IMG/VR virus record: IMGVR_UViG_3300020201_000026
Span: 1-54,968 of that record
Length of the DNA stretch: 54,968 bases
From: a virus
Direction: 5' to 3' (one strand)
Translations under genes and position numbers: made by a program
Notes under the pieces: model-generated
Told to the model about the DNA's origin: nothing
The model's database searches: none
The model's input: only the letters and a program-made list of their open reading frames with translations
Part shown: positions 62-10,232 of the stretch, in pieces
Layout of the letters: the number at the start of each line of letters is the position of its first letter
How positions within the stretch are numbered: position 1 is the stretch's first letter

Positions 62-517
62 CTATGAAAGATACGGGTTTACGAACAAGCTACTAAAAGT
101 AACATATGACCCGTTTTCTAACCTAAACACGACTATATCGTCTTTTACAGTTAAAAATGTCGCTTTCATTTCAACAATTTTATTCCACACGCTGTCAATC
201 ATCTCAAGCGTAGGAAAATACTTGAAAGACAACAAGTGCTTTTGTCCGTTTTGTTCGCACAAGTCCCATTCAACATCGTATTTGTGGGCATGTTGAATCT
301 TCAACACTTCCCACGAATCGCTGTGTGCCTTGTCGGTCATTCCTCTGGTGTATCTTCCAAACGGAATCAAAACTTGGGTTATTGTGTTTGCCTTAGTGTT
401 GTCATAATTTATTTCAATGACCCCATAAGGTTTTTTGTAGTGAAGTCCTCTAATGGTTATTTTTGGACAGGTTCTTTCTCCGTCCAACACCCATTTTGAA
501 CTTAATATGTTTGTCAT
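62..517 (-). CDS. Hypothetical protein, 151 aa
   Basis: I do not recognise this protein. It is a soluble-looking 151-aa polypeptide with alternating beta-type segments and no signal peptide or membrane segment. The start at 517 is supported by the left-arm leader (ATTTAAACCAATTAAAAA before ATG). The gap upstream holds a pseudoknot (542-568) and two strong hairpins, so translation or mRNA stability may be controlled by structure. The stop codon lies about 30 bp from the truncated gene at the window edge. Probably an early accessory protein, judged by position only. Confidence 0.75.
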   Translation of the reverse strand: MTNILSSKWVLDGERTCPKITIRGLHYKKPYGVIEINYDNTKANTITQVLIPFGRYTRGMTDKAHSDSWEVLKIQHAHKYDVEWDLCEQNGQKHLLSFKYFPTLEMIDSVWNKIVEMKATFLTVKDDIVVFRLENGSYVTFSSLFVNPYLS

Positions 518-541: not shown

Positions 542-568
542 AAGCAGTTTACACTCTTGCTTAGGAGT
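542..568 (-). ncRNA. Pseudoknot element, copy 3 (leader of the 151-aa gene)
   Basis: On the minus strand ACTC (568-565) pairs with GAGT (556-553) around a TAAGCA loop. AAGCA of that loop can pair with TGCTT (546-542), giving an H-type pseudoknot. The loop and TGCTT are identical to the two longer copies at 8795-8821 and 9134-9160, while stem 1 differs (ACTC/GAGT against AGTCC/GGACT), a compensatory change. The closing pair is a C-A mismatch here. It lies 24 nt before the ATG of the downstream gene. Confidence 0.5.
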
Positions 569-569
569 T

Positions 570-637
570 GTTTTAAACCTCTTTATAAAAGCGGTTTAAA
601 ACGTAATAGGTGAGGACAATACTATACTACCTATTAC
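570..637 (-). other. Two strong hairpins between the 111-aa and 151-aa genes
   Basis: 570-602 is a perfect 10-bp inverted repeat (GTTTTAAACC/GGTTTAAAAC, 13-nt loop). 603-637 is a perfect 9-bp inverted repeat (GTAATAGGT/ACCTATTAC) that overlaps the last codons of the upstream gene. They could stabilise the mRNA end or attenuate transcription. No long T run follows, so a classical terminator is not shown. Confidence 0.55.
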
Positions 638-962
638 TGTATTTTCTCCAATTGTATAGTTGTGGGGCAAGTAAGTGGTAGCAATATTTAGCCACCGCCC
701 AAGTGTCTTTTTTCCAATTGTATTTTTCTTTGTCAAGTAATCTTGAACAGAACTGAGCTACATAACAGGAGTTTTCCTCCCAATCAAAGCAGTTGTTTTC
801 AATCTGCCAAGCTATTAAATCATAGCTTGAATGTGCATACAACCACGCGTATTGTTGCCCGTGTTCAATGAACGCTAAGTGGACATTTAACTTTCCATTT
901 TCAAATCGCAATCGCCATTCATCACAAGGCACTGTTGTTAGGTTTTCTAATTCAATTATCAT
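627..962 (-). CDS. Hypothetical protein with W/C-rich repeats, 111 aa
   Basis: Not recognised. The C-terminal half contains roughly 20-residue imperfect repeats of the type F/Y-x-W-x(4-6)-A/Y-V-A-x-F/Y-C-x-x-L-L, unusually rich in Trp, Tyr and Cys. The segment N-G-K-L-N-V faintly resembles F-G-K-L-N-V in the 128-aa protein at 9747-10133, so the two might be distant relatives. The start at 962 follows a TTTTATTAA leader. No signal peptide or membrane segment is seen. Confidence 0.75.
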   Translation of the reverse strand: MIIELENLTTVPCDEWRLRFENGKLNVHLAFIEHGQQYAWLYAHSSYDLIAWQIENNCFDWEENSCYVAQFCSRLLDKEKYNWKKDTWAVAKYCYHLLAPQLYNWRKYSNR

Positions 963-5487: not shown

Positions 5488-5497
5488 TGTTTTTGGA

Positions 5498-5545
5498 TTT
5501 AGGGTTTAGGGTTTAGGGTTTAGGGTTTAGGGTTTAGGGTTTAGG
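5498..5545. repeat. Tandem (TTTAGGG)6.9 repeat
   Basis: Six full copies and one six-base partial copy of TTTAGGG without any mismatch, 48 bp in all. The unit equals the plant-type telomere repeat, but the setting is a phage intergenic region 10 bp upstream of an ATG. Its minus-strand transcript, (UAAACCC)n, begins the leader of the 170-aa gene. A perfect array suggests slippage and possible copy-number variation. Confidence 0.95.
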
Positions 5546-5982: not shown

Positions 5983-6013
5983 AGTTTTTTGTTTTGTTTA
6001 ATGGTTTAATAAA

Positions 6014-6041
6014 ACAGGACTTACATCTTACGACTGCCTGT
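6014..6041 (-). other. Intergenic hairpin of the ACAGG/CCTGT family
   Basis: On the minus strand ACAGG and CCTGT flank an 18-nt loop containing GTAAGATGTAAGT, then TTTTATTAA. The same 28-nt block recurs at 6709-6736 and 7879-7906 with two or three changes. It begins shortly after a stop codon each time, so it is a repeated gene-junction module. The 5-bp stem alone is weak; conservation of the loop suggests that the loop matters. Confidence 0.55.
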
Positions 6042-6050
6042 TGTTAGTTT

Positions 6051-6680
6051 TTAGATAGACTTCAGCATTTCTGCGAGTTTCTCTAACGTTTGAAGTCTTT
6101 CCGATACTACGGATTGAGCAGCGTAGATGACGGATTTCAACGCACTTGGCAGGGAGGTTACGGCATGAGGGGTCATGTCATAGTCCCCGAATAAAACACC
6201 AAGAGCAACCTCGTAAGGGAGCTTTGTAAAGTCTTCCCCTCCAAAACCGTTAAAGATGTTAGCCAAAGATACTCGCTCCATTTCTTCTCCATTGATTTTT
6301 GCAGAGGTTACTATTTCCCCTGAAACTATCCTTTCAGCAACCGTTTTGCAAACGAATGCAAAAAGGTTGAGTTCACCTCCATAACAATCACTGTCGTCTG
6401 CCAAATGGTTTTCAATAGCAACATTATTAATGGTTATTGTTGCTACTTCTACTACGCTGTACTTTTCCCCCCAAAAACTTGCTTGTGCGAGACTTGCAAG
6501 CATGGGTTGTCCGTTAGGGTTGAATAACCCCTCTATAATAGTTTGCGACAAAACTACATCACTGTTTATTGCCGCTTGTGTCTTGGTCTTTGCCATTAAA
6601 ACAAAAGCTGTTGCTTCTGCTTCGGTGGGGAAGAAGTACTCATTTGTTTTTTGAGTACGTTGGTTTTTGATAGTGAACAT
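6051..6680 (-). CDS. Hypothetical protein, 209 aa, tandem paralogue A
   Basis: Not recognised. It shares about half of its residues with the adjacent 206-aa product: N-terminus M-F-x-I-K-N-x-R then K-T-N-E-Y-F-F, the central L-A-D-D-S and F-x-N-x-F-G-x-E-D, P-Y-x-V-A-x-G-V-L-F-G-D-Y, and the C-terminus R-L-Q-T-L-E-x-L-A-x-M-L-K-S-I. The C-terminal helix ends in a coiled-coil-like stretch. The pair arose by tandem duplication including the junction hairpin. Leader TTTTATTAACC present. Confidence 0.8.
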   Translation of the reverse strand: MFTIKNQRTQKTNEYFFPTEAEATAFVLMAKTKTQAAINSDVVLSQTIIEGLFNPNGQPMLASLAQASFWGEKYSVVEVATITINNVAIENHLADDSDCYGGELNLFAFVCKTVAERIVSGEIVTSAKINGEEMERVSLANIFNGFGGEDFTKLPYEVALGVLFGDYDMTPHAVTSLPSALKSVIYAAQSVVSERLQTLEKLAEMLKSI

Positions 6681-6708
6681 TTTTTTACTTGTTTAAAAGG
6701 TTAATAAA

Positions 6709-6736
6709 ACAGGACTTACATCTTGCGACTGCCTGT
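6709..6736 (-). other. Intergenic hairpin of the ACAGG/CCTGT family
   Basis: ACAGG/CCTGT on the minus strand with loop CAGTCGCAAGATGTAAGT, followed by TTTTATTAA. It differs from 6014-6041 at one base in the 28-nt block. It lies between the two tandem paralogues and begins three bases after a stop codon. Confidence 0.55.
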
Positions 6737-7360: not shown

Positions 7361-7444
7361 AGTGTTTTTTTGTTTAAAAGGCTTAATAAAATAGCACGTT
7401 TATCTTAAACGTACAAATAAACACTAAAACCACGAGCAATCTTG

Positions 7445-7488
7445 GCTCTCTGGTTGCAACACCAAACTCACACACGGTGAGGAACTAT
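7445..7488 (-). repeat. 44-nt dispersed repeat, copy 1
   Basis: Identical to 8571-8614 at 43 of 44 positions; the single difference (A/C) lies in a hairpin loop. It contains the 5-bp hairpin CTCAC/GTGAG and the palindrome GTTGCAAC, which could pair in trans with its second copy. No coding frame is shared, so conservation is at the RNA or DNA level. Confidence 0.8.
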
Positions 7489-7878
7489 GTGTGGTCTTAG
7501 GGTTTAAGGTAGGTTTGAGCCTATAACTTTCTTGCTGTTACACAAGCCTGCTCAAACAGGATTAAGTTTTGCTAAACTTACAAAATAACATTGGACAACT
7601 TTCATTTAGCTAAATGAAGGCTTATGTTGTCCCAATGCCTCTTATCGGTCAATTACAAAATGATAGATTCTAATTCTTGACCTTTTACAGTCCCCCGTTC
7701 ATTACTCGGGCTATTTCGGAGAATAGCAAAAAACAGACGAGGCTTATGAAGCATTTTCGTGTCTGTCTTACTCCTTACTCAGTTCTAACGTATCTATCAC
7801 AGTTAGAACATATATGCACACCTGTCTTACAGGATTCAACGCTTGCATAATGCGTTATTTATTTGTTTATGAGATAAA

Positions 7879-7906
7879 ACAGGACTTACATCTTGCGAAT
7901 GCCTGT
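7879..7906 (-). other. Intergenic hairpin of the ACAGG/CCTGT family
   Basis: Third copy of the junction module (see 6014 and 6709): ACAGG/CCTGT with loop CATTCGCAAGATGTAAGT, then TTTTAT. It directly follows the stop codon of the 174-aa gene and forms the 5' border of the 548-bp structured gap. Confidence 0.55.
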
Positions 7907-8439: not shown

Positions 8440-8703
8440 TTCTGCTTACTCAATGCAGAAACACTCTGTCTTTGTCCCGAACGGGAAACAGGTGTTAGCA
8501 GTTTCTCGTAAATTCTACGAGGAAGATTTAGAGTTTTCTCTCTTTTGTTATCTACCGTACAATAATCACAGCTCTCTGGTTGCAACACCAAACTCACACC
8601 CGGTGAGGAACTATACTATACACTGCAAAAATGCAACATCACACCTAAGCCGAAGCTCTCCCTTTAGATTTTTCAGGGATTAAGGTGCCAACCTCCTAAG
8701 AGG
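8440..8703 (-). ncRNA. Structured leader of the 174-aa gene
   Basis: The gap 8434-8720 has no convincing gene. Helices: TTCTGC/GCAGAA (8440-8460), CTGT..CCC/GGG..ACAG (8466-8491), CTCGTA/TACGAG (8505-8521), the 44-nt repeat (8571-8614), a three-way junction (8642-8687) and CCTC/GAGG (8692-8703). In the junction CACCT/AGGTG encloses a CCCT/AGGG hairpin and AGC-UUCG-GCU. The UUCG tetraloop exists only on the minus strand, so the RNA reads with the gene. Confidence 0.5.
8571..8614 (-). repeat. 44-nt dispersed repeat, copy 2
   Basis: Second copy of the element at 7445-7488, 43 of 44 bases identical. Flanking sequences are unrelated, so it is a mobile or duplicated module and not part of a longer duplication. 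Loop of its hairpin reads CGGGT on the minus strand, against CGTGT in copy 1. Confidence 0.8.
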
Positions 8704-8720
8704 TATTTAAATACGTCTTT

Positions 8721-8821
8721 CTTGTTCTTTCACTGTCGCATTAACCCCCGTAGGAGAAAAGACGTTGCAACAGCGAGAGGTTTTTCCTCTATCAAAGCAG
8801 TTTATAGTCCTGCTTAGGACT
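8721..8821 (-). ncRNA. Pseudoknot RNA element, copy 1 (101 nt)
   Basis: Read on minus: pseudoknot (AGTCC/GGACT; loop AAGCA with TGCTT), hairpin AGAGG/CCTCT, then stem CTGTTGC/GCGACAG enclosing CTCC-UACG-GGGG, a UNCG-capped hairpin. Copy 2 at 9058-9160 keeps all helices while changing bases on both sides: CTTC-UACG-GAAG, and AGGGG/CCTCT with a G-U. The element lies between the stop of the 61-aa gene and the leader of the 174-aa gene. No known riboswitch or ribozyme class comes to mind. Confidence 0.65.
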
Positions 8822-8835
8822 TGCTCTTATCGGGG

Positions 8836-9021
8836 TTAATCCCAATAAGAGCTATGACCCCCTTTTCCATACGCTGCCATACGACAGCCGGGATTTCTTT
8901 TTATTGCAGCCCTTGAGGTCTTTGCAGGGCTTTTCTTTTTGGGACGACAAGCTTTTCTCCTGCCCATTGCTTGACGAGGGTGAAAGTCATTCTTGTCTTC
9001 CACAATCTCGTGGATTTTCAT
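8836..9021 (-). CDS. Small basic protein, 61 aa
   Basis: Not recognised. 61 aa with a strongly basic middle (R-R-K-A-C-R-P-K-K-K-S, then K-T-S-R-A-A-I-K-R), which suggests nucleic-acid binding. The ATG at 9021 has the leader AACCTTAAAACACAAG, like other left-arm genes, and this is the main reason to believe it. It sits between the two copies of the pseudoknot element, so it could bind or depend on that RNA. Composition differs from neighbours (many Gly, Arg and Lys). Confidence 0.5.
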   Translation of the reverse strand: MKIHEIVEDKNDFHPRQAMGRRKACRPKKKSPAKTSRAAIKRNPGCRMAAYGKGGHSSYWD

Positions 9022-9057
9022 GATGTCTTGTGTTTTAAGGTTAAATAATGCACTTTT

Positions 9058-9160
9058 CTTGTTCTTTCACTGTCGCATTAACTTCCGTAGAAGAAAAAGT
9101 GCTGCAACAATTAGAGGTTTATTTCCCCTATCAAAGCAGTTTATAGTCCTGCTTAGGACT
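9058..9160 (-). ncRNA. Pseudoknot RNA element, copy 2 (103 nt)
   Basis: About four fifths identical to 8721-8821. The pseudoknot (9134-9160) and the 3' end are unchanged, while the middle varies in ways that keep the pairing: CTTC-UACG-GAAG replaces CTCC-UACG-GGGG, and UUGUUGC/GCGACAG keeps its pairing with one more G-U. It begins 14 nt after the stop of the 143-aa gene and precedes the 61-aa gene by about 40 nt. Confidence 0.65.
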
Positions 9161-9174
9161 TTTGACGATTAATC

Positions 9175-9606
9175 CTACAGGGCTTTAACCCAGTACTCCA
9201 TTGAACTTAACCATGTAACACACATCATTGGACTAAGTTCCTCCGCCAGCGATGTCCAATCAGGGGCATACTGATTGTCCCCTTTTGTGGGGTAGCCCAG
9301 TTGGGCATACCCGTACAAATATGTCCACATTTGAAGTCGCACGTCCTCAAAAGAGCAGTAAAGGTGGGTTGCCCCCACTTTTGTTGCCTCTTTCACGATT
9401 TCAAGAGCCAAAGCTTTCACTTGTACAAGTGCGAGCTTGGCACTTTCTGTGTCAAATCCTATCATGGTTGCAATTTCTGTACCCTCGTACCCTTGAGCAT
9501 CTTCATGGTGGCAACCATTGATATGGCTGCCGTACTGTAAGCGGAACATGTCCTCTTGGCGAGGGGTCAATACAGTTTGAGACGCTACGAATAATATCTT
9601 TTTCAT
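9175..9606 (-). CDS. Diverged Csx20-like paralogue, 143 aa
   Basis: Aligns with the 140-aa protein at 3957-4379 over the N-terminal two thirds: L-F-V-A-x-x-x-V-L-T-x-x-Q near the start, L-A-L-x-I-V-x-E-A, A-T-H-x-Y-C and M-W-x-x-L-Y. The C-terminal S-T-T-x-R, D-G-S-V and F-x-H-V motifs are missing and the last 40 residues are unrelated. If the first protein is a cyclic oligoadenylate binder, this one may bind another ligand or act as a partner. Followed by a pseudoknot element, preceded by a GAAA-loop element. Confidence 0.7.
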   Translation of the reverse strand: MKKILFVASQTVLTPRQEDMFRLQYGSHINGCHHEDAQGYEGTEIATMIGFDTESAKLALVQVKALALEIVKEATKVGATHLYCSFEDVRLQMWTYLYGYAQLGYPTKGDNQYAPDWTSLAEELSPMMCVTWLSSMEYWVKAL

Positions 9607-9631
9607 ATTTTTATTTATTTAAGGTTTATTT

Positions 9632-9702
9632 TCTTGCGAACCACCGCTTGCTCTATGTTTCCATAGACTTGTGAGACTCTCGTATTCCGAAGAACTTAGA
9701 GG
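9632..9702 (-). ncRNA. GAAA-loop RNA element, copy 1
   Basis: Minus strand: hairpin GTTC-UUCG-GAAT, conserved GAGTCTCACAAG, hairpin TCTATG-GAAA-CATAGA (9652-9667), then conserved GCAAGCGGTGGTTCGCAAGA. Copy 2 at 10162-10232 has the same conserved blocks but other stem bases (GTCC/GGAT; GTTACT/AGTAAT). Paired changes plus a GNRA loop show selection for structure. It forms the leader of the 143-aa gene. Confidence 0.6.
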
Positions 9703-10133: not shown

Positions 10134-10161
10134 AATACTTATTTATTTATTGAGTTTAATT

Positions 10162-10232
10162 TCTTGCGAACTACCGCTTGCATTACTTTTCAGTAACCTT
10201 GTGAGACTCCCATATCCTACTGGACTTAGGGG
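10162..10232 (-). ncRNA. GAAA-loop RNA element, copy 2
   Basis: Paralogue of 9632-9702. Hairpins GTCC-AGTA-GGAT (10214-10225) and GTTACT-GAAA-AGTAAT (10182-10197). The outer G-U pair of the latter is valid only on the minus strand. The blocks AGTCTCACAAG and GCAAGCGGTAGTTCGCAAGAA are kept. It is the leader of the 128-aa gene. Confidence 0.6.

Follow-up and report, generated by a model that had tools for sequence, protein, structure and literature searches.

Why should a phage genome carry two closely similar structured RNA elements on either side of one small basic gene, and are these a peculiarity of a single virus or part of something more widespread? The window, by which we mean the whole stretch of DNA analyzed, is the 54,968-base record of a crAss-like phage. 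Its major head protein shares about 25% identity with the counterpart in crAss-like phages and is also matched by Flavobacterium phages. The plus strand carries the terminase and portal genes, and the two elements (E1 and E2) sit among small genes on the minus strand.

The twin elements and their fold

E2 (9160-9050, minus strand) and E1 (8821-8713, minus strand) each comprise three parts, namely a 27-nt pseudoknot, an A-rich-loop hairpin, and a second domain; their limits extend slightly beyond the 8721-9160 of a preliminary description, which had placed two elements around the small gene. In E2, the H-type pseudoknot (module 1, 9134..9160) is formed by stems S1 (9160-9156/9149-9145) and S2 (9154-9150/9138-9134), and is followed by the hairpin AGGGG-AAAUAAA-CCUCU (9113..9129) and the second domain (module 2, 9050..9111). 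The two-copy alignment places the E1 pseudoknot at 8795..8821 and, together with folding, as for the E2 hairpin, its hairpin AGAGG-AAAAA-CCUCU at 8776..8790; module 2 of E1 spans 8713..8774.

Within module 2, a UACG-capped stem (9093-9082 in E2, 8756-8745 in E1) reads CUCC/GGGG in one copy and CUUC/GAAG in the other, and is enclosed by a longer 8-bp stem, helix b (9102-9095/9057-9050 and 8765-8758/8720-8713). There is an additional 9-bp helix a in the UGUUGCA/UGCGACA region (9111-9103/9077-9069 and 8774-8766/8740-8732), and because helix b encloses both the UACG hairpin and half of helix a, the second domain is pseudoknotted as well. The preliminary description had named the first pseudoknot, the A-rich-loop hairpin, and the UNCG-capped stem within a longer stem, all of which were found, but it had missed helix a and with it the second pseudoknot.

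The differences between the copies preserve pairing, as had been claimed. In the two-row alignment, 36 of 36 pairs are formed in both elements and 14 of the 15 substitutions fall in paired columns, with two-sided changes in five pairs and compatible one-sided changes in four. Pairing falls to 40-46% when partner strands are shifted by one to three columns, and when the 13 substitutions of module 2 are placed at random, all 21 of its pairs are kept in 0 of 100,000 trials. Shuffling of the 3' letters gave 16/500, which with two rows is a weak control. Minimum-energy folding, a method that cannot draw pseudoknots, backs parts of the fold (z of -3.3 and -2.4).

Each element is thus a composite of two modules, a widespread pseudoknot and a domain private to this phage. 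The fold proposed earlier stands, but its restriction to one genome does not hold for module 1, which recurs with covariation in hundreds of phage copies; for module 2, further copies with covariation were found in no other phage. A search of the window for additional long copies returned E1 and E2 only, and BLAST of the E1/E2 region against phages gave no match. UNCG loops are also a feature of the STAXI motif. That motif is pseudoknot-based and occurs near phage-like genes (PMC2864571), so that E1 and E2 resemble it in pseudoknot, loop, and phage setting; STAXI, however, forms tandem repeats near DNA-binding genes, whereas E1 and E2 have no Rfam match. A ToxI-like toxin-antitoxin RNA was considered and rejected, as no tandem repeats were seen and no neighboring protein had a toxin match.

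The gene between the elements (8836..9021, minus strand) encodes a basic protein of 61 aa (MKIHEIVEDKND...GGHSSYWD). Its earlier nomination as a binding partner is unsupported: searches with Pfam, PHROG, and tblastn against phages returned no homologue, and in many phages with the pseudoknot no such protein was found. It cannot be the general partner of module 1. Its location between E1 and E2 is instead consistent with the general rule set out below, that the pseudoknot lies behind stop codons: the 61-aa ORF has its stop codon 14 nt ahead of E1, and a 143-aa gene (ORF 9606..9175) has its own 14 nt ahead of E2. A third copy in the window, consisting of module 1 alone (542..568, minus strand), lies between ORFs 962..627 and 517..62, 58 nt behind a stop codon and 24 nt ahead of a start codon. 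As a separate observation, the loop region of a 12-bp hairpin at 8822-8852 (minus strand, fold z -4.3) contains the stop codon of the 61-aa ORF, and E1 begins directly after this hairpin.

A pseudoknot family shared by unrelated phages

Module 1 can be written as S1-CU-RRRYA-N-S1'-N-UAAAC-URYYY. For the family, we accepted sequences of the form S1(3-4 bp)-CU-RRRYA-N-S1'-N-NAAAC-URYYY in which both stems are paired, a definition that takes in E1, E2, and the third window copy. The exact pattern matched 55 stretches in viral contigs, and a scan with S1 unconstrained gave at least 120 matches. Removal of near-identical flanks left 327 non-redundant copies, in phages of Bacteroidota, cyanobacteria, Bacillota, Proteobacteria, and Mycobacterium, although related phages still inflate this count. 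As the copies were gathered with fixed DNA patterns, their frequencies carry a bias and the counts should be read as minimum values.

The 327-copy list was filtered for paired stems; covariation should therefore be judged from scans that left the tested stem free. In such scans, S1 is paired at 4/4 positions in 269/332 sites, and the outer S2 pairs are formed in 273/279, with many pair types. Among 154 sites found with S1 free, 130 also show at least three of four S1 pairs together with a varied S2 pair. Relaxed scanning returned AAG/CUU, GAG/CUC, GGG/CCC, AGG/CCU, and GAA/UUC as S2 variants; S1 varies freely, the loop letters CU and AAAC are invariant, and the flanks are poor in G. A backwards pattern gave no match in 20 records that contain 41 matches to the forward pattern, and reversed loci gave one. 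The fold of module 1 is real, both stems covary, and it is common to hundreds of unrelated phages.

Carriers include Synechococcus phages S-CRM01 and S-SM2, Nostoc phage NMeng1, Microcystis phage LMM01, Methylophilales phage Melnitz, Roseobacter phage CRP-6, Moraxella phage Mcat1, Mycobacterium phage Labelle, crAss phages, about 90 Staphylococcus phage records, and Lactobacillus and Streptococcus phages. One 53-kb phage record holds as many as eight copies.

The module 1 family has no match in the Rfam library searched. With Rfam 15, no covariance model matched module 1 or module 2 at its gathering score, and with E values up to 10 the best hit was a weak piece of a group II model (18.4 bits vs 49). 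A literature search found no description of such a pseudoknot family; as subscription papers and large lists of candidate RNAs fell outside it, a prior description is possible.

In bacterial genomes, the exact pattern matched three times in 84,980 species, and in Bacteroidota chromosomes the pattern was not above its backwards control. There is a chromosomal subfamily in some Bacillota (GTCCTGGGYANGAC..TAAACTRCCY; L405-L408, L410, L411, L413, and L414), in which a conserved mini-ORF like MLRKRYMLRPVAHCKEGC has the pseudoknot directly behind its stop or overlapping it. A terminator often follows, the neighboring gene is not constant, and these loci had no match in Pfam, NCBIfam, or Rfam; mini-ORF and pseudoknot together may form a stand-alone mini-gene.

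Placement behind stop codons

The position of module 1 follows stop codons. Counted from mechanically called same-strand ORFs of at least 70 codons, 130 of the 327 copies start 5-9 nt behind the stop of a clear long ORF, with a mode at 5 nt (5 nt, n=53; 6, n=29; 7, n=18; 8, n=13; 9, n=17), and a single copy lies at 3 nt or less. The remainder, more than half, are found with short ORFs, other RNAs, or uncertain gene calls. Compared with comparable non-overlapping genes, UGA is underrepresented as the stop before the pseudoknot (8/170 vs 121/564; odds ratio 0.17-0.18, p=4e-8).

Such spacing brings the ribosome to mind, since frameshift and readthrough pseudoknots likewise have a spacer of 5-9 nt. 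A pseudoknot at the mRNA entrance while the A site is occupied by the stop codon could act on the terminating or post-termination ribosome by blocking run-on into the following structure or gene, or by slowing release, which would suit both the sharp lower limit of 5 nt and the avoidance of UGA, the leakiest stop. The family also resembles the readthrough and -1 frameshift pseudoknots of the murine leukemia virus type in being H-type and lying a few nucleotides past the A-site (stop) codon, within about 8 nt. The resemblance ends there: frames extended more than 40 codons past the stop are no more frequent than elsewhere (11.8% vs 11.3%), there is no strict frame rule, and the weak stop UGA is avoided, so we rejected readthrough or frameshifting as a coding function. 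Some copies lie behind tRNAs, where there is no ribosome, and the 5-nt limit could be purely steric. We regard an action on the ribosome as unlikely.

Could module 1 serve the gene that follows? If the spacer were cut, the knot would be left at the 5' terminus of the downstream RNA, where it could guard against 5'-to-3' decay or control translation. In keeping with this, 224/327 copies lie between co-directional genes, scaffold and capsid genes come next in Staphylococcus, Lactobacillus, and Streptococcus phages, and the third window copy is close ahead of a start codon. The spacing, however, is tight upstream and loose downstream, the distance to the next ATG being broadly distributed. It is also the upstream genes that recur in divergent phages (DUF932 in 22/216, ribonucleotide reductase in 8/216), whereas downstream neighbors vary, and the hammerheads and tRNAs that stand directly behind some copies would sever the pseudoknot from the next gene. 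A role as a 5' element is quite unlikely.

A close phage comparison is the gp32-binding pseudoknot of the T2/T4 gene 32 mRNA, located in the 5' leader with about 67 nt between it and the start codon (PMC3014915). Both are small phage pseudoknots of the H type, in which loop 1 is short and the stems are coaxial. Module 1 differs in that it occurs in unrelated phages, where it lies behind the stop codons of many genes at a loose distance from the next start, and the family as a whole does not share the leader position of gene 32.

RNA companions and a proposed role at mRNA 3' ends

Other RNAs accompany module 1. tRNA genes, mainly tRNA-Asp, begin 4-14 nt behind 17 pseudoknots, and type III hammerheads would cleave about 5-8 nt behind the pseudoknot in L027 (two pseudoknots, one hammerhead each), L049, L054, and L227, and about 20 nt behind it in L013 and L046; the L013 hammerhead scores 42.4 bits in Rfam (E 1.6e-8), just below the threshold of 48.5. 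Terminators follow some copies. Module 1 itself was rejected as an intrinsic terminator, for its U-run is not consistent and it also occurs 4 nt ahead of tRNAs. Two further observations concern its surroundings: divergent DUF932/PHROG_1221 genes (L330, L119, L096, L103, and others) have the pseudoknot behind them 22 times, often with tRNA-Asp directly next, and at L128:8952-9754 a pseudoknot lies about 170 nt ahead of a ROOL RNA.

A cut by a hammerhead or at a tRNA behind the pseudoknot would leave it 3'-terminal on the upstream RNA. Taken together, the tight upstream spacing, these companions, and the recurrent upstream genes suggest that module 1 is a 3' element belonging to the gene before it. 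From these sequences, we tentatively prefer the reading that module 1 defines the 3' end of the message upstream and protects it, perhaps as an exonuclease stop, and regard this as nearly an even bet. Module 1 would be placed as near the stop codon as the terminating ribosome permits, and the RNA would be cut downstream by a hammerhead, by RNase P at a tRNA, by another nuclease, or ended by a terminator plus trimming. The pseudoknot would then be near the 3' terminus, where a tight fold and a short tail may hinder 3'-to-5' exonucleases, and genes within one long phage transcript could thereby decay at different rates.

Parts of this scheme resemble known systems. REP hairpins shield upstream mRNA from 3' exonucleases, and module 1 resembles REP/BIME elements and T7 RNase III sites as a multi-copy structured RNA behind stop codons in operons; it differs in being a pseudoknot rather than a palindrome, phage-borne, and at a near-fixed spacing from the stop codon. 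Viral exoribonuclease-resistant RNAs are compact pseudoknots that halt exonucleases, although the known ones stop 5'-to-3' enzymes and the position of module 1 would point to 3'-to-5' ones. Perreault et al. 2011 (PMC3088659) proposed that phage hammerheads divide long transcripts into gene-length mRNAs; several hammerheads lie directly behind module 1, which is nevertheless a separate element, usually without a ribozyme.

Some observations fit 3'-end protection poorly. In the window itself, the three copies start 14, 14, and 58 nt past their stop codons, and more than half of all copies fall outside the 5-9 nt class. Protection of an mRNA does not account for two pseudoknots that sit 1-2 nt after tRNA genes, and the Staphylococcus and Lactobacillus sites just ahead of scaffold and capsid genes would also suit a 5' role. 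The tRNAs on either side, the multiple copies within operons, and the invariant CU and AAAC letters beside a freely varying S1 would equally suit a recognition site at which a host or phage nuclease, or another protein, processes polycistronic RNA, as at the T7 RNase III sites. Yet the carriers were not found to share any one protein, the 61-aa protein being no candidate, and with hosts from cyanobacteria to Mycobacterium the recognizing factor would need to be universal; we think a recognition site improbable.

A structured RNA that stands at a near-fixed distance from the stop codon in hundreds of phages, with no counterpart in the Rfam library searched, would amount to a testable rule that these phages share in expressing their genes. 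This could account for unequal protein amounts from operon-long phage transcripts, and it connects phage hammerheads and tRNA processing with mRNA 3' ends. Should module 1 stop exonucleases, as we infer, it would also be a portable RNA part.

The second domain

Module 2 occupies the slot behind module 1 that a hammerhead or tRNA holds in other phages, and from this place we infer, with low confidence, a phage-specific companion in 3'-end formation. A self-cleaving ribozyme, or another 3'-end former, would be compatible with 3'-end protection by module 1. Its strand order, a5-b5-hairpin-a3-b3, is the P1-P2-P3-P1'-P2' order of the nested pseudoknot in HDV-like ribozymes, and helix b has four two-sided changes between E1 and E2. 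Against this, module 2 lacks the three-helix CUGANGA/GAAA core of a hammerhead, its 4-nt linker and UACG loop are unlike P3/P1.1 of HDV, and no Rfam ribozyme matched even at E=10, so both identities were rejected.

Relatives were also sought. Scans of viral contigs with exact and with relaxed DNA patterns turned up chance matches only, mostly in coding sequence, the module 2 architecture was not convincingly present behind any of the 327 pseudoknots, and a terminase search returned only one near-identical contig, without the E1/E2 region. We hold a ribozyme or other 3'-end former here to be a long shot. That the 27-nt pseudoknot is a general 3' cap stopping 3'-to-5' decay across phyla and, at the same time, module 2 a new self-cleaving, end-making ribozyme is a conjunction we consider very improbable.

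Other repeats in the window

The window contains several further repeats. A hairpin ACAGG..CCUGU followed by UUUUAUUAA occurs on the minus strand at 5985-6041, 6680-6736, and 7850-7906, with weaker copies at 7362-7418 and 965-1021; three of the copies start about 3-10 nt past a stop codon, a placement like that of the pseudoknot elsewhere. A 51-nt leader repeat (7438-7488 and 8564-8614, minus strand) is intergenic and 92% identical between its copies, the second of which lies behind E1, and short tandem TTTAGGG repeats occupy the intergenic stretch 5491-5545. A twin leader element (9605-9702 and 10135-10232, minus strand) lies just ahead of start codons; its copies are 71% identical, and a GAAA-capped stem that reads CUAUG/CAUAG in one becomes UUACU/AGUAA in the other.
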